In this document: piece by piece, positions 43,635-51,763 of the stretch | How positions within the stretch are numbered: position 1 is the first letter of the stretch | How the letters are laid out: each line of letters opens with the position of its first letter | NCBI RefSeq assembly: GCF_900104945.1 | Contig: NZ_LT629736.1 | Coordinates: forward strand, 992,001-1,056,000 | Direction of reading: 5' to 3' | Source of the DNA: Halopseudomonas xinjiangensis | GTDB taxonomy: Bacteria; Pseudomonadota; Gammaproteobacteria; Pseudomonadales; Pseudomonadaceae | DNA length: 64,000 nucleotides | Notes under the pieces: generated by a model | Seen by the model: the letters and a program-made list of their open reading frames with translations, nothing else | Told to the model about the DNA's origin: nothing | Database searches by the model: none | Position numbers and translations under genes: made by a program

Positions 43635-44813
43635 ATGACTTTACGACTGCTGCTCATACTGGGCGGCCTCAGCGCATTCGGCCCGCTGGCCATCGATCTG
43701 TATCTGCCAGCTTTTCCGGCTATGGCCGCCTCGTTCGGTACGGACAGCGAGCACATACAGCTTAGCCTGTCTGCCTATTTCATTGGGTTGGCTTCCGGTC
43801 AGCTGTTTTACGGGCCGGTCGCCGACCGCTTTGGCCGTCGCAAACCGTTGCTGTTCGGCATCGTGCTGTTCTGTCTGGCTTCGCTGGCCTGCGCGCTGGC
43901 GCCGTCACTGGAATGGCTGTTGGCGGCGCGTTTCGCGCAGGCCTTGGGCGGTTGTGCCGGCATAGTGGTGAACCGGGCGGTTGTGCGCGATCTGTGTACA
44001 CCGATCGAAGCGGCGAAGGCGTTTTCCCAGTTGATGCTGGTGATGGGCGTCGCACCGATTCTCGCGCCTCTGGGCGGTGGCGCTCTGCTCGCCCTGGGCG
44101 GCTGGCCGCTGATCTTCCTGTTTCTGGCGGTGTTCTCCGGCGTGTATATCTTCGCGGTCTTCTTCGGCCTGCCGGAAACCATTTCGCAGACCACGCCCCG
44201 GGCGCCATTATCCAGTGCTTTGGGACGTTACGGCCGGCTGCTGCGCGAACCGGTGTTCATGTATCACGCGCTGACCGGTGGCATAGCCATGGCGGGGATG
44301 TTCGCTTACATCGCTGGTTCGCCTTTCGTCTTCATCGAACTCTATGGCGTGCCCGCGGAGCATTTCGGCTGGTTCTTCGGTGCGAACGCCGCAGGTTTCA
44401 TTCTCTTCGCCCAGTTCAACAGCCGCCTGTTGCGCCGCCGCTCGCCGGTCAAGGTGCTCAAGCTGACCAGCACGATCTACCTGGTGTGCACCCTGTTGCT
44501 GCTGATTGTAGCGCTCAGCAATCCCTCTTCGTTGTGGGTGATGATGCCGCCGCTGTTTGGCAGTGTCGCGGTTATCGCGTTGGTGCTGCCAAACTCTTCG
44601 GCCAGCGCGATGGCTGGTCATGGCCACCAAGCAGGCGTGGCTTCCGCCTTGATGGGCACCATGCAATTCGTGATCGCCGGCATTACCTCGGCCGCAGTGG
44701 GCGTGCTGCACAACGGTACCGCGGTGCCCATGGCCGCTGTCATGGCAAGCTGCGGCGTGCTTGTGGTCATCATGGCGAGGCAGGCCCGGCGAGCCAGCGC
44801 CGCCCAAGCCTGA
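43635..44813 (+). CDS. Bcr/CflA family multidrug efflux MFS transporter
   Basis: 392 aa, 12 membrane segments. FGPLAIDLYLPAFPAMAASFG at the N-terminus is the Bcr/CflA signature, followed by loop 2-3 motif GPVADRFGRRKPLL and motif C-like LVMGVAPILAPLGGGAL. Expected drug:H+ antiporter. The 3' end overlaps the convergent selB gene by 44 bases. Confidence 0.92.
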   Translation: MTLRLLLILGGLSAFGPLAIDLYLPAFPAMAASFGTDSEHIQLSLSAYFIGLASGQLFYGPVADRFGRRKPLLFGIVLFCLASLACALAPSLEWLLAARFAQALGGCAGIVVNRAVVRDLCTPIEAAKAFSQLMLVMGVAPILAPLGGGALLALGGWPLIFLFLAVFSGVYIFAVFFGLPETISQTTPRAPLSSALGRYGRLLREPVFMYHALTGGIAMAGMFAYIAGSPFVFIELYGVPAEHFGWFFGANAAGFILFAQFNSRLLRRRSPVKVLKLTSTIYLVCTLLLLIVALSNPSSLWVMMPPLFGSVAVIALVLPNSSASAMAGHGHQAGVASALMGTMQFVIAGITSAAVGVLHNGTAVPMAAVMASCGVLVVIMARQARRASAAQA

Positions 44814-46662
44814 GGCGAGTCAGTCCACTGCGGTCGAAGTATTCCAGCACGGCAATGCTGTGATTGCGCCCGATCTTGGTCAGGTCACGGAATTCGGCTG
44901 CGGTGAAACCGCCGTCGGCGCTCTGGTTGGCCATACATTGCGCCGATCGATATAGCTGGTCGGCCAATTTGGGCAGCAGGTAGCGATTGCGTCCGACGAA
45001 GACGAGGATGCCCAAGGCACTCAGTTCATCCAGCGCCGTTTGCAAAACGCCACGCTCCAGTTCGAGCTCGTCGAGCAGCTCGCCAATGACTGGCGGACGC
45101 GGTTCGCAAGCTTCGAACAGAGGTTGCATGCGTGCGAAAAGCTCCTCGGTTGCTGCACTGGGTCTGGGTTGATGATCTGGCCAATGCAGCGACGGACCTG
45201 TCTGGACAATGCTGCCATCATCCAGTGCCACGCGCACCGCGTGTGACAGCAGCTGGCTGGGAAGCTTGATCTGCAATCGCCGCGCCAGTGCTGCGAAAGT
45301 CGGTCCGCGCAGCTGCGGTGATTCGGCATGGAACTCGCGCACGGTGGCGATAAGCGCCTGAGTGCATTGCGCGAACTGAGACGTCTTACAGGCCCAGTTC
45401 CCGCGTCGATACAGCTGGCCGGCCGCGAGCATCGAGGCGACCAGTGAATCCATTGCCTGCTCGCTGATGTGGCGGCCGCGACGAAGGTCGGCCAGGTCTA
45501 TACCGTCTTCCGATGCCTCCAACCGATCCTGCAGGGTTCGCGGCAGGTCGCAGTTGTCCAACGCTCGCAGCATCACCAGGCGCTTGGCCGACTGCCGGCC
45601 GCGGGAAGGGGCCATTGGGTCGACGACGATCCCACTGCCGACCAGCCGATGGGTCGTCGCGTTGCGTATGACGAAACGATCGCCGCTGCGACAAGCGAGC
45701 GGTTCAGCGAGAATCCACTGTGAATAACCCTGGGGATGCCCGTCCTCGATACCGCGTAACGGCACCTGGCGCGCCACCACGGTACCACCACCCAGGTGCA
45801 GCTGCAGGTCGCCGCGTGCGGAATGCTTGGTCAGCCGATCCATCCGCGCGTCCAGCCGCTGGGTGAGCAGCCATGCCTTGTCGTCAAGCAATTGCGAGCC
45901 GCGCTCGTATGCGCCGTCTGCCAGGTCGCCGGCAAGGTCCAGTGCACCGCGTTGCCCAGCTGCCAAGCTGGCCGCTGGCTGGCCATGCCGTTGTATCGAG
46001 CGCACCCGGACCGTCGTGCCACCTGGTGTCAAGCGCAGCGTTTGACCCGGCTGCACCGACCCCTGGTACAGCGTACCGGTTACCACATGTGCCGCACCGG
46101 GGCGGTGGAAGTGCCGATCGATCCAGAACCGCGGCAGCAATTGCGTGTGAGCGGCGTGGTGACACCTGCCCAAAGCGAAGAGCATCTGGCGCAGGTGGTC
46201 GATGCCCAACCCGCTCAGACTGTCGACCTCTGCAATATGGACCGTCTCGATGCCGGCTTCGGCCAGCCGCTCACGCATGTCTTGCCGGAGCGCATCGCGC
46301 GCGTCGGCGGTGGCACGAGACACCTTCGTCAGTACTACGATCGCCATGTCCACTGCCAGTAAACGCATTAGTTCGACATGTTCCAGGGTCTGCGGCATCG
46401 GGCCGTCGTCTGCGGCCACCACGAGCATTACCGCATCAACCGCGCCGACTCCGGCCATAAGCGTGCGCATGAAGCGCTCATGCCCCGGAACGTCGACAAT
46501 GTCGATCCCGCTGCCGTCAGGGGTCTGTAGCCAGGCGAAGCCAAGCTCGATGCTCAGCCCGCGGCGGCGTTCTTCTTCTGTACGGTCGGTATCCTGGCCG
46601 GTCAGGGCGCGCACCAATGCAGTCTTGCCATGGTCGACATGACCCGCAGTTGCAAGAATCAC
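44770..46662 (-). CDS. selB: Selenocysteine-specific elongation factor SelB
   Basis: 630 aa. N-terminal GTPase with G1 GHVDHGKT, G3 VDVPGHERF and G4-like VLTKVS, EF-Tu-like domains 2-3, then about 250 residues of winged-helix repeats (domain 4) that bind the SECIS hairpin. GTP-dependent delivery of Sec-tRNA to UGA codons. GTG start overlapping the selA stop (GTGA). It is the last gene of the module whose client selenoprotein lies about 1.6 kb upstream. Confidence 0.96.
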   Translation of the reverse strand: MILATAGHVDHGKTALVRALTGQDTDRTEEERRRGLSIELGFAWLQTPDGSGIDIVDVPGHERFMRTLMAGVGAVDAVMLVVAADDGPMPQTLEHVELMRLLAVDMAIVVLTKVSRATADARDALRQDMRERLAEAGIETVHIAEVDSLSGLGIDHLRQMLFALGRCHHAAHTQLLPRFWIDRHFHRPGAAHVVTGTLYQGSVQPGQTLRLTPGGTTVRVRSIQRHGQPAASLAAGQRGALDLAGDLADGAYERGSQLLDDKAWLLTQRLDARMDRLTKHSARGDLQLHLGGGTVVARQVPLRGIEDGHPQGYSQWILAEPLACRSGDRFVIRNATTHRLVGSGIVVDPMAPSRGRQSAKRLVMLRALDNCDLPRTLQDRLEASEDGIDLADLRRGRHISEQAMDSLVASMLAAGQLYRRGNWACKTSQFAQCTQALIATVREFHAESPQLRGPTFAALARRLQIKLPSQLLSHAVRVALDDGSIVQTGPSLHWPDHQPRPSAATEELFARMQPLFEACEPRPPVIGELLDELELERGVLQTALDELSALGILVFVGRNRYLLPKLADQLYRSAQCMANQSADGGFTAAEFRDLTKIGRNHSIAVLEYFDRSGLTRLRLGRRWLAGPASP

Positions 46663-48050
46663 CGTCGATCCTTCAGCTGTTCAAGGAAAGCTGTTTCGTC
46701 ATCCAGGCAGCGACAATCAAGAATCACCGAAGCATCCTGAATGCGCCCGATAATGGGTACCGGGAGTCCACGCAAGCTGGCAGCCAGAGCATTAAGCTGG
46801 CTACCGGACCGCTTCGCAGTGGCGCTGCGTAGCACCAGGGCTTGACTGGGGAGTTGCTCGATTGGTAGGGCGCCACTGCCAATCTGTCCCATTACGGCTT
46901 CACTGGTAACCTCGTAACCTTGCCCGACCCAGGCGGCGAGCGGTGCCATCAGCCGCTCGCATTGTTCCGCGATATTCTCGCGTGAGCGGCTCAGTGCCCG
47001 AAGGCTCGGCAAGCGTTCACCAAGCCGTTCAGGATCGGAATACAGGCGTAGCACGGCCTCAAGCGCTGCGATCGTCAGCTTGTCGCAACGCAAGGCACGC
47101 TTGAGCGGATTCTTTTTCAGACGGCCGATCAGTTCACGGCGGCCGACGATGATGCCGCACTGTGGCCCGCCGAGCAGCTTGTCGCCGCTGAACGACACCA
47201 GATCGGCGCCGTTGGCGATGCTGTCCATTGGCGTCGGTTCGGCTGGCAGACCCCAGCGACGCAAGTCGACAAGGCTGCCACTTCCCAGATCCACGATGTA
47301 CGGCAGATCGTGATCGTGGGCGAGCTGAGCCAGGCGTTGTTCCGGCACGGTTGCCGTGAAGCCGACCACCTTGTAGTTGCTGGTGTGAACGGTCATCAGC
47401 AAGCTGGTGCGCGGGGTGATCGCCTCGGCGTAGTCGGCCAGGTGCGTGCGGTTGGTCGTGCCGACTTCGCGGAGTTTGCATTGGGCTCGGAGCATCACAT
47501 CCGGCATACGGAATGCGCCGCCGATTTCCACCAGCTCACCGCGCGAGACGGGCACTTCCTTGCCTTTGGCCAGTGTGTTGAGCATCAACAGCACGGCGGC
47601 TGCGTTGTTGTTGACCACGGTGGCAGCTTCCGCGCCGGTGAGCCGGCACAGCCACGCTTCGAGGTGGGCATCGCGATCGCCACGCCGGCCGCTATCCAGA
47701 TCGAACTCCAGATTGCTTGCGCCGCGAGCTACGGCTGTCATCGCCGCGATGGCTTCCTCGGGCAGTGGCGCGCGGCCCAGGTTGGTATGCAGCACGGTGC
47801 CGGTCAGGTTCAATACCCTGCGCAGCGAGGGCGATAGCCGGGTGGTCAGTATGTTTTGTACGGCGCCGCAGAAGGCATCGGCATCGAACGGAGTCACAGT
47901 GATTCGCAGCGTGGAAAGCGCCTGCGCAATGATCTCTTTTACCAGCGGCTGGCCATGCTGTGCAGCAAGCTCTGCCACCCACGGCCAGCGCAACAGCTGG
48001 TCGACCGAGGGAAGGGTGCGGCGGGGATCAGCGGAAAGGTCCATGTACAT
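46659..48050 (-). CDS. selA: L-seryl-tRNA(Sec) selenium transferase SelA
   Basis: 463 aa. PLP lysine in SFSGDKLLGGPQCG, with N-terminal core domain (VLNLTGTVLHTNLGRAPLPEEA) and NNNAAAVLLML typical of SelA. Converts Ser-tRNA(Sec) to Sec-tRNA(Sec) using selenophosphate. Translationally coupled to selB. selD (selenophosphate synthase) and selC (tRNA-Sec) are not seen in the window and must be elsewhere. Confidence 0.96.
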   Translation of the reverse strand: MYMDLSADPRRTLPSVDQLLRWPWVAELAAQHGQPLVKEIIAQALSTLRITVTPFDADAFCGAVQNILTTRLSPSLRRVLNLTGTVLHTNLGRAPLPEEAIAAMTAVARGASNLEFDLDSGRRGDRDAHLEAWLCRLTGAEAATVVNNNAAAVLLMLNTLAKGKEVPVSRGELVEIGGAFRMPDVMLRAQCKLREVGTTNRTHLADYAEAITPRTSLLMTVHTSNYKVVGFTATVPEQRLAQLAHDHDLPYIVDLGSGSLVDLRRWGLPAEPTPMDSIANGADLVSFSGDKLLGGPQCGIIVGRRELIGRLKKNPLKRALRCDKLTIAALEAVLRLYSDPERLGERLPSLRALSRSRENIAEQCERLMAPLAAWVGQGYEVTSEAVMGQIGSGALPIEQLPSQALVLRSATAKRSGSQLNALAASLRGLPVPIIGRIQDASVILDCRCLDDETAFLEQLKDRR

Positions 48051-48129
48051 CCATAGCGTAACGGTTGAAAGGTTCGTTGAAACGCGTGGTTTCGGATGCC
48101 CGATAGGGAAGGGACGGGGCGACGAACCG

Positions 48130-48152
48130 CCCGCTGCCGTAAAGGCAGCGGG
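48130..48152 (-). terminator. Hairpin between the selenoprotein and selA genes
   Basis: CCCGCTGCC and GGCAGCGGG pair around GTAAA, 78 bases after the UGSC stop. No T-run, so it may attenuate rather than end the transcript before selA. Confidence 0.45.
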
Positions 48153-48230
48153 AACTACGAGACGTACTCGCGCGTGCCCAGGTTCGTTTCCGATCGGACC
48201 CGCAGCGATAGGTCAGGCTCGCTTGATGAC

Positions 48231-48761
48231 TCAGGTGTCCTGTCTGGTCAGCGCCTCCAAGATGTTGGCGAACGCCTGATCAGCCAGTGCGCGTAGTTCA
48301 TCATCGGTCCGGTCCTGAATCGGATGTGGTACGAAGACCATGTCCGGATTCATGCCCAATGCCTTGCTCTGCAGCGCCGCCGCTTCGACAAACTCGGTTG
48401 AAGCGATACCAACGCCCGGGATCTTGCGGCCTTCGAGGTCGCCTATGTCATGCATACAGCACGACGTACAGGAGCCTCAGTCAGCCAATCCTTCTACCAA
48501 AACGTCGCACTCGCTGGCGATGAGTTGCTTTAGTTCGGTCGGAGCGATCCGGGCGAACGTCGGCTTGCGATACCGCTTCACTTCGATACCGCGCTCCGAG
48601 AGCAGGGCATCCAGTCGATCGAGAAATACATCGCCGCGTGATTTGGAGATGTCCAGGAGACCGACGGTCAATCCTTCCAGGCTTGCCGGCCTGGCACTCA
48701 GGCTACGGCCGGCCGGGGACGATTCGGCGGTCGGGTCGAGCAGTGTGGTCGGCGCGTTCAT
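48231..48761 (-). CDS. UGSC-family selenoprotein (in-frame UGA = Sec95)
   Basis: Read through TGA at 48477-48479, the frame gives 176 aa: 94 residues up to VLVEGLAD, Sec95, then GSCTSCC and 74 more residues to the TGA at 48231. The UGSC motif with extra Cys (98, 101, 102) is the hallmark of the UGSC family, reported from marine bacteria as a hypothetical selenoprotein. The N-terminal half is alpha/beta (LTVGLLDISKSRGDVFLDRLDALL). A SECIS hairpin lies just downstream (48447-48465). The start overlaps the upstream Trx-like gene (ATGA), and selA-selB follow. Probable redox role; substrate unknown. If read conventionally, it would appear as two short ORFs. Confidence 0.93.
48447..48465 (-). promoter_or_regulatory. 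Bacterial SECIS element
   Basis: Read on the minus strand, GUCGUGC (48465-48459) pairs with GCAUGAC (48453-48447), 7 bp with one G-U, around the loop UGUAU that has G in its second position. The UGA is 11 bases upstream of the stem and 18 from the loop, inside the window known for E. coli-type SECIS. It is within coding sequence. Confidence 0.85.
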
Positions 48762-50212
48762 GCCGTTACCTCCTTGCTTACCGGGGTGGAGCCAGTCGGG
48801 CCGGAGGCGGCCCAGCCAGCGATGACGGCGGAGAACAGACCGGCCGGACCTCCGGCCCGGACGATCAGCAACCCACCGGGTCGAAACTTGGGAATATCGG
48901 CGCTGGCGAAGTTCGCCGGCATGCCCTCGGCGATGCCATCGGCACCGACCACCAGATCCTTGCCAGGCATGACCAGCAACTTGTCCAACTCTTCGCGCAG
49001 GCGAGCCTTGCTCCAGCCCGCGTCAAGAAACACCCGCGCGTGCTCCGGAGAGACGACCAGCATGGCATCGCCATGCATGGCCAACTTGTAATGATCAACT
49101 GCGCGCAGCGAGAGGGCGAAGCTTCGGGCCAGCGACTCGGGCGTGCGGGACTTCTGATCGAGAATGCCCTGCACGCCTTCGGCAGCGAACAGGGTCACGA
49201 CTGACTGGTCCTTGCCGAAGCCGCGCTCGACAGCCAGGGAGTCCCACTCGCCGTCCTCGGCTTCGGCAAAGCAGAAGGTGTATTTGCCGGGCGTACCGAG
49301 GGTGGCGCGATCAATCTCGCCGGGACGGCCGCCGCCGACGTTGCGTACGACCAGCTGCAGCGCGCGACCGATACTGGCGTTGGCGCGGTTTCCTTGCCCC
49401 AATGCATTCACGCCCGAATTCATTCCGATCTGCGTGGCGGCGGGGCCGTTTACCAGAACTAGCGGGCCCGCGAACATGGTCGTGCAGAGGAGACCGTGCA
49501 TGCCGAACTCGTCGATCAGTGCAGCTTCCACTGCGGCAAGCACAACCGGCATATATTCGGGTTTGCAGCCAGCCATGACCGCGTTGATGGCGACTTTTTC
49601 GACGGTACAGGGCACCAGGTCTGGCGGCATCAACCCAAGCACTTCCTCCGGTTTGCGCGCGGTGCCTTGCAGCATCCGGTAAACGCGCTCCGGCGTCGGG
49701 GGCACAACCGGTAGTCCGTCGCTCCAGCCGCGATCGAAACAGGCTTCGATGGGGTCTTCGCTGTCGCCGATCTCAACTTCACGCGAAGCAAAGCTCACCG
49801 CGCCGAAGCGTATGGCGAGGCGATCCGAGACACCCGGGTCCTGGGTCTTCGAACCACAACCGGGACGGGAGGCGGGCAGGTCGGCGCCAAGCGCAGTGCA
49901 GCCGCTTATCCGCTCCCAATCTTCACGAAACCACCCGTAGGTCCGCTCGATCTCCGCACCGTGGTCACGGCGGATAAGCGTAGGGACGATTTCGCACTCA
50001 AGGGACCATGACCAGGCCAGGTCCGTGTCGTCTATCTGTCGCGCGTGACCGGCAGAGAAATCAGCGACGTCCTGGGCGACGACGGTGATGGGGATGCCGC
50101 TGTCGGACAGCTGAGCAAGCACCGGCTCGATGAGGCTGCAGGTCGGGCAGGCGCGCTTGACGATGACGATGAGTCCGTCAGGAAGAGCAGGGAGCAGATT
50201 ATGTGTTGTCAT
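48758..50212 (-). CDS. Thioredoxin-like protein fused to a UGSC-associated domain
   Basis: 484 aa from the ATG at 50212. Residues 10-110 form a thioredoxin-like domain with the redox motif CPTC (22-25) and the cis-Pro in CEIVPTLIRR. A Gly/Pro-rich linker with Cys follows, then about 330 residues of an alpha/beta domain that I know only from partners of UGSC proteins: WSDGLPVVPPTPERVYRML, and AMHGDAMLVVSPEHARVFLDAGW. Cytoplasmic, no signal. Its stop overlaps the selenoprotein start, so it and the UGSC protein probably act as an electron-transfer pair (inference). RBS weak (AAGGG adjacent to the ATG). Confidence 0.82.
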   Translation of the reverse strand: MTTHNLLPALPDGLIVIVKRACPTCSLIEPVLAQLSDSGIPITVVAQDVADFSAGHARQIDDTDLAWSWSLECEIVPTLIRRDHGAEIERTYGWFREDWERISGCTALGADLPASRPGCGSKTQDPGVSDRLAIRFGAVSFASREVEIGDSEDPIEACFDRGWSDGLPVVPPTPERVYRMLQGTARKPEEVLGLMPPDLVPCTVEKVAINAVMAGCKPEYMPVVLAAVEAALIDEFGMHGLLCTTMFAGPLVLVNGPAATQIGMNSGVNALGQGNRANASIGRALQLVVRNVGGGRPGEIDRATLGTPGKYTFCFAEAEDGEWDSLAVERGFGKDQSVVTLFAAEGVQGILDQKSRTPESLARSFALSLRAVDHYKLAMHGDAMLVVSPEHARVFLDAGWSKARLREELDKLLVMPGKDLVVGADGIAEGMPANFASADIPKFRPGGLLIVRAGGPAGLFSAVIAGWAASGPTGSTPVSKEVTA

Positions 50213-50299
50213 CCCTTGTTTGTAGCAGGTTCCGTTCGGCAGGCAAGCACTATCAGCTGGGCTGATGAGTGCCGCCTTTTGTCGCAAATCGAGACACCC

Positions 50300-51763
50300 T
50301 CACCGGGAAGGAAGCAGCCCCGCGCATGATTCGTCACCGGTAGCGGTCTGTGGTCGGCTCTGGCCGGGTTGATTAAGCAGCGCCGAAAGCCGTACGTCGG
50401 CGCCCAGCACATAGCGCAACTGGCCCTGGCGATCGAATACCGGCGCCGATAAGGTGAAGCAGAATGCGTCGGTTGCGGATGAACGATACACCGGGCTGAT
50501 GTACGGCTTGAGGTCGTCGCGCACGGCCTTGAACCACGGACGACCCACCCAGTTACGCCCACGGACGCTACCTTTGCCAGTGTCAGCCAGGTCTTTCGCA
50601 AAAATGTTCTCACTGACCTGGGTGCCATCGGCACCGACCAGATACATCAATTCGAAGCGATGATCACGCGCGATGTATTCCTGCATGGCGCGCTCGGCCT
50701 GAGCCGTTCCGTCGAGCAGAGCGGGTTCCGTTGCGAAGCGCTCGATTCGCTCGCGTACCTGCTGGTGCACGCCAAGCTGGAACCGGCCCAGTCCGTCGAG
50801 CAGGTGATCGCCTTCGCTTCTTACGGCCTCGCTGTGCTGGCTTACCTGAGCGGCCTTGCGCAGCAACTGATGGGCGACGCCCGAGATGCTTTGCACGTCT
50901 TCGCTAACCGAGCGAACTGCCGCACCGATCTGCTCGGTGCCGCTGGCCATGCTGGTCATGCGCTGATCGAGCTGCTCCATCCCCTGAACCGCATCGGCCA
51001 GCCGCTGATCGACGCGCAGGATGCCGTCGCGGCCCTCGGCGATCGAGCGATGCATGCTCTCACCGGCGTCCTGCAGGTGCTGCATGCCGCCACGAAACCC
51101 TTCGATGATGGTGCTTACCCGGTCGGTGGCTTCGGTGGTATGACCAGCCAGGCGCCGGACCTCCTCGGCGACGACGGCGAATCCACGACCCTGCTCGCCG
51201 GCGCGCGCCGCTTCGATGGCGGCATTCAGGGCGAGGAGGTTGGTCTGCTGGGAAATAGTGGCGATCATGCCGATTACCTGGGTGACTTCCTCGATCTGCT
51301 TGCCGAGTCGTTGTATTTCTCCGGCGAGCTGGCTCTCGGCATTTTGAATGGTGTCCACCTGTGTCAGCACCAGACGGCTGTCCGTTTCACACTGGCGAAG
51401 CTTGGAGGTGACCTGGCCGGCCAGGCCGGCAATCGCCGATGCGCTGGGCACCAGTTCCGACTCGAGCGTTGTGCTGATTTCCTCGATGGCGCTGGCAATC
51501 ATCTCGGCGGACTGCGAGAGCTGTTCGCCGTTGCGTTCGGTCTCACCGGCGATCGAGGCGAGCTGGGGAGCGTGCGCGGCGATGCCGACTGCAGCGTCAA
51601 GGCTGGTTGCTATGCGCTGGTGCAACCGTTCGACGAATTCAGGCAGGCCGCTCAGCGAGCCGCGTTGCGCGGACGGCTTCACGCTCAGGTCAAGGTTGCC
51701 GAACAGGCGCGTGTATACAAGCGAATCGGCTGAGTTGATACGGGAAAAGGTAAACAGGCCCAT
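50300..51763 (-). CDS. Soluble chemoreceptor with C-terminal Cache sensor
   Basis: 487 aa without membrane segments. The order is inverted compared with classical MCPs: the signalling domain comes first (hairpin tip [32 protein letters not shown] at about 180-215), then a coiled-coil, then a PDC/Cache-like sensor at about 365-470 ([56 protein letters not shown]). It should sense a small cytoplasmic ligand and signal to CheA. It lies just upstream of the fab genes' end, a position I recall for an MCP in P. aeruginosa. Confidence 0.88.

Follow-up and report, generated by a model that had tools for sequence, protein, structure and literature searches.

A UGSC selenoprotein gene related to GrdB and its thioredoxin-fused partner, clustered with selA and selB in Halopseudomonas xinjiangensis, as a candidate two-subunit reductase

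Glycine reductase draws its electrons from the thioredoxin dithiol (PMC10298544), and its protein B binds the substrate and releases the amine (PMC10298544, PMC13188914). D-Proline reductase, PrdA/PrdB, also has a short selenocysteine (Sec) subunit related to GrdB, the 26-kDa PrdB, with a separate partner (PMC13188914). A GrdB/GrdE-type system was furthermore proposed for another C-X bond in the farEB fluoroacetate reductase operon of Synergistota (PMC10838667). The UGSC family is among the most abundant selenoproteins of aquatic metagenomes, with 255 found in the Global Ocean Sampling (GOS) survey, and a 2008 paper described its fusion with a conserved domain named 'Unknown_1' (PMC2398784). 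In the excerpts of that paper considered here, no function was given, the fold was described as likely thioredoxin-like, and neither a partner with a thioredoxin domain nor GrdB was mentioned. UGSC proteins of Geodermatophilaceae have also been mentioned, with reference to a recoding paper (PMC5330540). Here, we analyzed a UGSC gene in a 64,000-nucleotide stretch of the Halopseudomonas xinjiangensis genome (NZ_LT629736.1, positions 992,001 to 1,056,000; hereafter the window). This gene adjoins the gene of a 484-residue protein with a thioredoxin domain, termed TLP, and is followed by the Sec-insertion genes selA and selB. The source genome comprises one contig of 3.54 Mb and is 100% complete.

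The earlier note, made from the letters of the window, had called the reaction of the TLP and UGSC pair unknown; the relation of UGSC to GrdB, the selenoprotein B of glycine reductase, now suggests a reaction class. At E<=0.5, 34 of 47 UGSC proteins matched the GrdB model TIGR01917 (best E 3.3e-4) and 31 matched the GrdF model (best 7.1e-5), and the window protein was aligned to positions 330-399 of the 431 in the GrdB model. For the reverse search, GrdE was located at nine places in 6 of 198 genomes and the surroundings were fetched. A UGSC profile run over all frames of these nine stretches gave three matches over the inclusion threshold (E 8e-6 to 1.5e-5), and all three were GrdB according to NCBIfam and Pfam. 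In the two alignments listed, CGSCTSC was placed on CGTCTRC or CGSCTRC, where the first C stands for Sec. Five GrdB frames carrying UGTCTRC or UGSCTRC were retained, all five scoring over the TIGR01918 and PF07355 cut-offs and two of them over that of TIGR01917. When UGSC was compared with these five by hhalign, a single pairwise comparison whose E-value is not a database E-value, a probability of 95.4% was obtained over 121 columns, with UGSC 47-174 on GrdB 309-443 and Sec on Sec. Four other pairings, including UGSC with GrdE and the C-terminal domain of TLP (TLPc) with GrdB, reached only 0.2-0.4%. Judged from these profiles, UGSC is very probably a free-standing protein related to the C-terminal part of GrdB, where the Sec lies. 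It differs from GrdB, which has about 440 residues, in its length of 176 residues and its lack of the N-terminal part. Its likeness to glycine reductase extends to a separate partner subunit and to a thioredoxin system as reductant, which for UGSC is partly inferred.

The pairing of UGSC with TLP was nearly constant. Among the best 80 of 420 TLP relatives examined in genome contigs, UGSC lay on the same strand within 400 bp of TLP in 79 loci, all but L074, with a median gap of 11 bp between the aligned ends. The motif in these loci was UGSC in 77 and UGAC in L076, and was cut by the contig end in L080. Searches of the same 398 genomes of the phylum, begun with either protein, found TLP in five and UGSC in five, the same five. 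On plasmids, TLP-like matches occurred in 24 records, of which 15 were fetched, and UGSC occurred in nine, side by side with TLP in 9/9. Within the genus, in which 27 genomes carry UGSC, 20 loci were returned, one being that of the window itself; TLP adjoined UGSC in the remaining 19/19. The neighborhood of the two families is therefore not random, and the earlier note's proposal that they form a coupled system is borne out by this pairing, by their co-occurrence and by natural fusions of UGSC with TLPc (L076 with the UGSC motif, L122 with CGAC). TLP and UGSC almost certainly constitute one functional pair.

The thioredoxin-like domain attributed by the earlier note to the 484-residue protein is present, but it fills only the N-terminal quarter, and the conserved partner of UGSC is the C-terminal domain. 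The thioredoxin domain spans about residues 5-106, contains C22-P-T-C25 and resembles 3ios in VIA (Z 10.6, 2.3 A over 100 residues); C22 and C25 were kept in 45 of the 45 aligned rows that have this domain. TLPc covers about residues 125-484. Cys216 was kept in all 66 complete TLPc rows, a count that leaves out the two halves of the broken L130 frame, as does the count for Cys314 given below. None of 49 TLP members exceeded a curated Pfam or NCBIfam cut-off, only weak thioredoxin-type matches being obtained; no model of either collection fits TLPc. The VIA list for the whole TLP model was filled by the thioredoxin domain and barely tested the fold of TLPc. Comparison of TLPc with aconitase X (two sequences) and with the GrdB and UGSC profiles gave nothing. 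Class I fumarase, the first Foldseek match, was rejected as a relative: this match had a probability of only 0.44 and a root-mean-square deviation of 16, and hhalign against 19 fumarase loci from the genus and order gave a probability of 0.0%.

TLPc also occurs without thioredoxin. Among 18 stand-alone TLPc loci (L022-L024 and L117-L131), 17 had a UGSC-type domain, with U, C or a degenerate motif, adjoining or fused, and L131 had none; haloarchaea have Cys forms of UGSC with TLPc. In an unrooted tree of 66 TLPc domains, in which several stand-alone rows form long branches, the thioredoxin-fused forms fell on one side of a branch with support of 100/100; perhaps thioredoxin was captured by fusion, once. 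The TLPc domain is plausibly the Unknown_1 of the 2008 paper. In two further fusions, L123 and L126, Pfam saw a weak UGSC part (28.3 and 24.9 bits, respectively, against a cut-off of 25), with the motif lost in L126. These weak or degenerate fusions lie beside aconitase X and DUF126 genes (L123 4851-10005 and L126 5001-9008) and possibly have a different activity. Both forms of the system stand on one contig in L076 (2334-8347), namely the UGSC-TLPc fusion with a second TLPc, and a thioredoxin-fused TLP with UGAC.

Gene neighborhoods suggested the source of electrons. The order is trxB-trxA-TLPc-UGSC in Arthrobacter ERGS1:01 and TLPc-UGSC-trxB in Roseovarius THAF8, and trxB is the third gene upstream of TLPc in Variovorax SRS16. 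The Arthrobacter TrxB was used as a query at E<=1e-12 against 100 loci (L020-L024, L028-L107 and L117-L131). A TrxB-like gene was found in 8 of the 18 stand-alone TLPc loci (326 kb) versus 1 of the 82 thioredoxin-fused loci (L020; 1,124 kb), and a separate TrxA at the same threshold in L117 only. A thioredoxin reductase gene is thus often near where thioredoxin is not built in, and thioredoxin is likely to be the reductant of the pair. As to the substrate, 9 of 13 annotated plasmid stretches had a TctC, TRAP or ABC solute-uptake gene no more than 9 kb from TLPc (present in L117, L118, L120-L122, L124, L125, L130 and L131; absent from L119, L123, L126 and L127), often with LysR regulators, CoA-transferases or lyases nearby. 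Since uptake genes are common generally and this count has no control, a small carboxylate as the substrate is only a guess. Neighboring genes were also clustered by single linkage over 85 loci, the 80 best TLP loci plus five. The largest clusters after TLP, UGSC, SelA and SelB (17, 15, 11 and 10 loci) were not used, as the clustering was by single linkage and some clusters mixed overlapping wrong-frame open reading frames (ORFs); by eye they resembled a short-chain dehydrogenase, a wrong-frame ORF, a CoA ligase and an enoyl-CoA hydratase.

With the gene order, the co-occurrence, the SECIS hairpin described below, the UGSC-GrdB profile relation and the thioredoxin/TrxB association all directly observed, we favor, with some reservation, a thioredoxin-fed, Sec-dependent two-subunit reductase of the glycine/proline-reductase kind, for which we infer the complex, its substrate, the bond cleaved and the roles of the cysteines. 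TLP and UGSC would together make one selenoenzyme, whose genes are grouped in this genome with the selA and selB required for its synthesis. The Rossmann-like domain of UGSC, akin to the C-terminal region of GrdB, would bear the catalytic Sec within its UxxC(xxC) motif, and TLPc with Cys216 would be the substrate-side subunit, in the place of GrdE or PrdA. Electrons would pass from NADPH through thioredoxin reductase to thioredoxin, which here is fused to TLPc. The Sec selenolate may then attack a polarized C-X bond in a small organic acid bound to TLPc and cleave it reductively, forming a selenenylsulfide with Cys98 of UxxC (or with Cys216 of TLP) that the CPTC dithiol would reduce. The selenolate of UGSC, the holding and polarizing of the substrate by TLPc and the recycling by thioredoxin are proposed by analogy with glycine reductase. 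Reductive C-X cleavage of a carboxylate is a tentative assignment, with chances a little short of even. Still more tentatively, the pair might represent a second, thioredoxin-fed class of Sec-dependent small-molecule reductases, in which the Sec domain of GrdB, without glycine reductase, is combined with the unrelated TLPc in many phyla. It would then account for the retention of the whole Sec code in lineages such as this genus, and would break a C-X bond in some organic acid from the environment with no need of the GrdE/GrdA/GrdC machinery of anaerobes.

The described systems differ from this proposal in several respects. In contrast to glycine reductase, the partner of UGSC has no detectable relation to GrdE. 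D-Proline reductase is reported not to be thioredoxin-linked (PMC10298544), and only 2 of the 47 UGSC proteins matched its model TIGR04483 at E<=0.5. The farEB proposal concerns GrdB/GrdE relatives in anaerobes, and a stand-alone subunit of the UGSC type is not mentioned in the excerpts of that paper (PMC10838667).

A number of observations count against the proposed reductase, in addition to the single-comparison nature of the hhalign result and the uncontrolled transporter count. The window UGSC protein scored far below the cut-off of the full-length TIGR01917 (12.9 versus 602.2 bits), and with the UGSC profile three other stretches containing GrdB reached no better than E 0.055-0.19. When TLPc was compared with the nine aligned GrdE sequences, the hhalign probability was 0.2%; PF09338 was not searched in the source genome. 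PF07355 had no match in that genome; as this model covers GrdB up to the Sec and ends there, it could not have found UGSC, and the result therefore means only that no N-terminal GrdB part was found there. Some UGSC relatives lack the third Cys of UGSCTSC, and Cys314 of TLPc was kept in 63 of 66 rows, the exceptions being L122, L127 and the fused L076 copy. The TrxB-like gene was near 8 of the 18 stand-alone loci rather than all; among the proteins compared with the TIGR01292 cut-off, all but those of L022, L129 and L130, the ones from L122 and L127 fell below it, and the gene of L129 is 5 kb away. Finally, in the thioredoxin-fused clade the neighborhood shows nothing but selA and selB, with no clue to the substrate.

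The likeliest alternative is a protein-thiol repair system or redox relay (peroxidase, disulfide reductase or sulfoxide reductase) that has proteins or peroxides as its targets, in which TLP would serve as a dedicated thioredoxin and UGSC would be a thioredoxin-like selenoprotein. The CPTC thioredoxin domain of TLP and the UxxC motif of UGSC would fit such a role, the fold of UGSC was described as likely thioredoxin-like (PMC2398784), and a sentence on proteins of that fold in the excerpts of PMC13188914 can be read to include UGSC. However, the AlphaFold2 (AF2) model of UGSC (pLDDT 91.2, pTM 0.84) shows strand-helix alternation over five strands, and the Sec immediately precedes the helix that follows strand three. 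Most of its VIA neighbors were domains of the Rossmann, receiver or similar types (best Z 11.4, 3.7 A over 135 residues), and no thioredoxin was named among the 50 matches listed. The model gives no support to a thioredoxin-like fold, though UGSC may still have one; the UGSC profile against PDB sequences gave only chance-level matches. The profile relation to GrdB and the many stand-alone relatives among small-molecule catabolic and transport genes likewise speak against a relay, which we consider unlikely.

A further alternative is an accessory role in selenium metabolism, in which TLP-UGSC would not be a metabolic enzyme but would deliver or recycle selenium for SelD or SelA and hence travel with selAB. 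The full Sec-decoding set (selA, selB, selC and selD) was found in the source genome. The earlier note's reading depended on selC and selD, which both lie outside the window: selC at 1944694-1944784 of the contig (C1), with 77 bits, over the cut-off, and typed by ARAGORN as tRNA-SeC with anticodon tca, and selD at C1:1061935 (440 bits), about 6 kb beyond the window end. Directly after selD lies the selenouridine synthase gene mnmH (L025 7921-10070; G000:C1 about 1061920-1064070, G000 being the source genome), so that tRNA selenouridine is probably a further use of selenium in this genome, separate from the selAB-UGSC cluster. Selenophosphate is then probably drawn on by tRNA modification as well, while selA and selB are grouped with UGSC. 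The clustering of the Sec-insertion genes with UGSC, put forward by the earlier note, is true here and common, but its closeness is variable: among 52 loci with at least 4.5 kb downstream, selA was within the fetched stretch in 25, selB in 28 and both in 25. A selA over the cut-off was present in 34 of 34 genomes tested out of 81, namely the source genome and those of 33 of the 80 loci.

Within the genus, UGSC was found in 27 of 37 genomes and selA over the cut-off in the same 27 (not corrected for kinship), neither was found in nine, and one genome that is 79% complete (G664) had a selA fragment and no UGSC. By coordinates, the two genes adjoin in 23 of the 27; both are kept about 0.4 Mb apart on the single contig of G663, and they are on different contigs in G637, G652 and G655. 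Few evolutionary events may lie behind these counts. The source genome had two formate-dehydrogenase-family matches, neither with a UGA, other selenoprotein families not being searched for, and 8 of the 34 genomes tested had such a match with an in-frame TGA (G410, G421 and G423-G428). The view of UGSC as a main client of the Sec machinery is supported by the shared presence with complete selA and by the formate dehydrogenases lacking UGA; that it is the sole client is not claimed. This shared presence in the genus and the nearness of selAB in many loci would also suit the accessory role, as would the DsrE, TusA and cysteine desulfurase genes that lie near TLPc-UGSC, between selA and selB, on the Paracoccus plasmid of L119 (4610-6756) and that perhaps serve sulfur or selenium delivery. 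Against this role, haloarchaea and Arthrobacter have Cys forms of the pair in neighborhoods of catabolic and transport genes, it would be awkward if a factor for making Sec itself needed Sec, and many Sec users are not known to have UGSC; the accessory role is improbable.

The proposed reductase presupposes that the UGA in the UGSC frame is decoded. An open frame past the UGA is weak proof, as 27 of 160 comparable stop-to-stop segments in the window (94 or more codons, with a single TGA end) were followed by 81 or more open codons by chance. Scored across the UGA, the window protein exceeded the curated cut-offs of PF24696 (145.2 versus 25 bits) and NF041046 (152.3 versus 125), and U or C occupied one alignment column in all 47 UGSC proteins. 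In the window alone, the 48-nt stretch that begins at the UGA forms a candidate selenocysteine insertion sequence (SECIS) hairpin with a folding energy of -22.9 kcal/mol (z = -5.0 relative to dinucleotide shuffles). Conservation of this hairpin was examined in 85 script-picked stretches, 73 of them distinct, the two that failed being kept in the denominators: in L041 the pattern seems to have taken the wrong site, and L076 is the fused paralogue. The 7-bp stem formed 6 or 7 pairs in 71 of the 73, with a mean of 6.66 pairs in the true register versus at most 3.75 when the partner was slid by 1-3 bases. Pairs 18-30 and 21-27, which join third codon positions, were standard in 73/73, and position 21-27 covaries (C-G, G-C and T-A were all seen). 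Bacterial SECIS elements generally need a G at the second loop position, and both main loop classes, TGTAT and AGTNT, have it. Against a synonymous-codon null, the mean z over the 85 stretches was only -1.57, weaker than the shuffle value of the window. Ten Cys-form genes averaged 4.8 of 7 pairs, and three of these ten also had 6 or 7, so that the stem is in part a consequence of the encoded protein. Taken together, the family score across the UGA, the conserved hairpin, and selC and selD support the predicted decoding. That the UGA is a true stop, with the C-terminal half decayed or made as a separate product, is hardly credible: frequent chance read-through in this GC-rich window would allow it, but the score running across the UGA, the single U or C column, the stem covariation at third codon positions and the complete selA, selB, selC and selD set all oppose it. 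On the Paracoccus (L119 8396-8683) and Acidovorax (L121 8419-8709) plasmids, the annotation of UGSC stops at the Sec UGA and presents it as a short hypothetical protein.

The UGSC family and its fusion with Unknown_1 are already in print (PMC2398784). Excerpts from open-access full texts yielded no account of the UGSC-GrdB relation, the thioredoxin-fused partner or the shared presence with selA, which are apparently new. A near-constant partner, a GrdB-type Sec site and a thioredoxin link turn the open UGSC family into a testable enzyme, for which a two-gene construct is defined and both the reductant and the reaction class are predicted. Furthermore, the genus-wide match of UGSC and selA would offer a clean case in which retention or loss of the 21st amino acid may hinge on one enzyme pair.

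The coordinates of the locus are collected in Table 1. The four genes described by the earlier note were confirmed in a row at the given places, as were its ATGA junction between TLP and UGSC and its GTGA junction between selA and selB. SelA matched TIGR00474 with 583 bits (cut-off 268) and SelB matched TIGR00475 with 298 bits (cut-off 242). The closest named relatives of TLP, among the best 80 of 420, were from Halopseudomonas, with 82-84% identity.

Table 1 Features of the TLP-UGSC-selA-selB locus, in window coordinates.
Feature	Position	Strand	Remarks
TLP	48758..50212	minus	484 aa; thioredoxin domain and C-terminal domain TLPc
UGSC family selenoprotein (predicted)	48231..48761	minus	176 aa; start overlaps TLP stop (ATGA)
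In-frame UGA, predicted selenocysteine 95, motif UGSCTSC	48477..48479	minus	
Candidate bacterial SECIS hairpin, from UGA onward	48432..48479	minus	core 7-bp stem 15-21/27-33, numbered from U of UGA
UGSC-selA spacer	48051..48230	minus	180 bp; strong hairpin
selA, L-seryl-tRNA(Sec) selenium transferase	46659..48050	minus	by family score
selB, Sec-specific elongation factor	44770..46662	minus	GTG start overlaps selA stop (GTGA)

An Rfam scan of 44000-51000 returned one match, below its gathering score, and a promoter and terminator scan gave signal not above shuffled sequence. The sequence of the UGSC-selA spacer varies widely among the genus relatives looked at. Among these spacers (window 48051-48230, L029, L170, L172, L179 and L187), several of those from the relatives carry very strong inverted repeats, folding at -105 to -128 kcal/mol over 195-255 nt; these may be mobile repeats or may act as a regulatory hairpin. 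The 3' ends of selB and of a convergent ORF (43635-44813), by eye a transporter, share 44 bp (44770-44813). Upstream of TLP lies an ORF judged by eye to be chemoreceptor-like (50300-51763), with a counterpart at 6417-7853 of L029. Chemoreceptor-like relatives recur in four TLP loci (L029, L030, L034 and L055, the last from Ectothiorhodospiraceae), the membership of the window ORF in this group being judged by eye.

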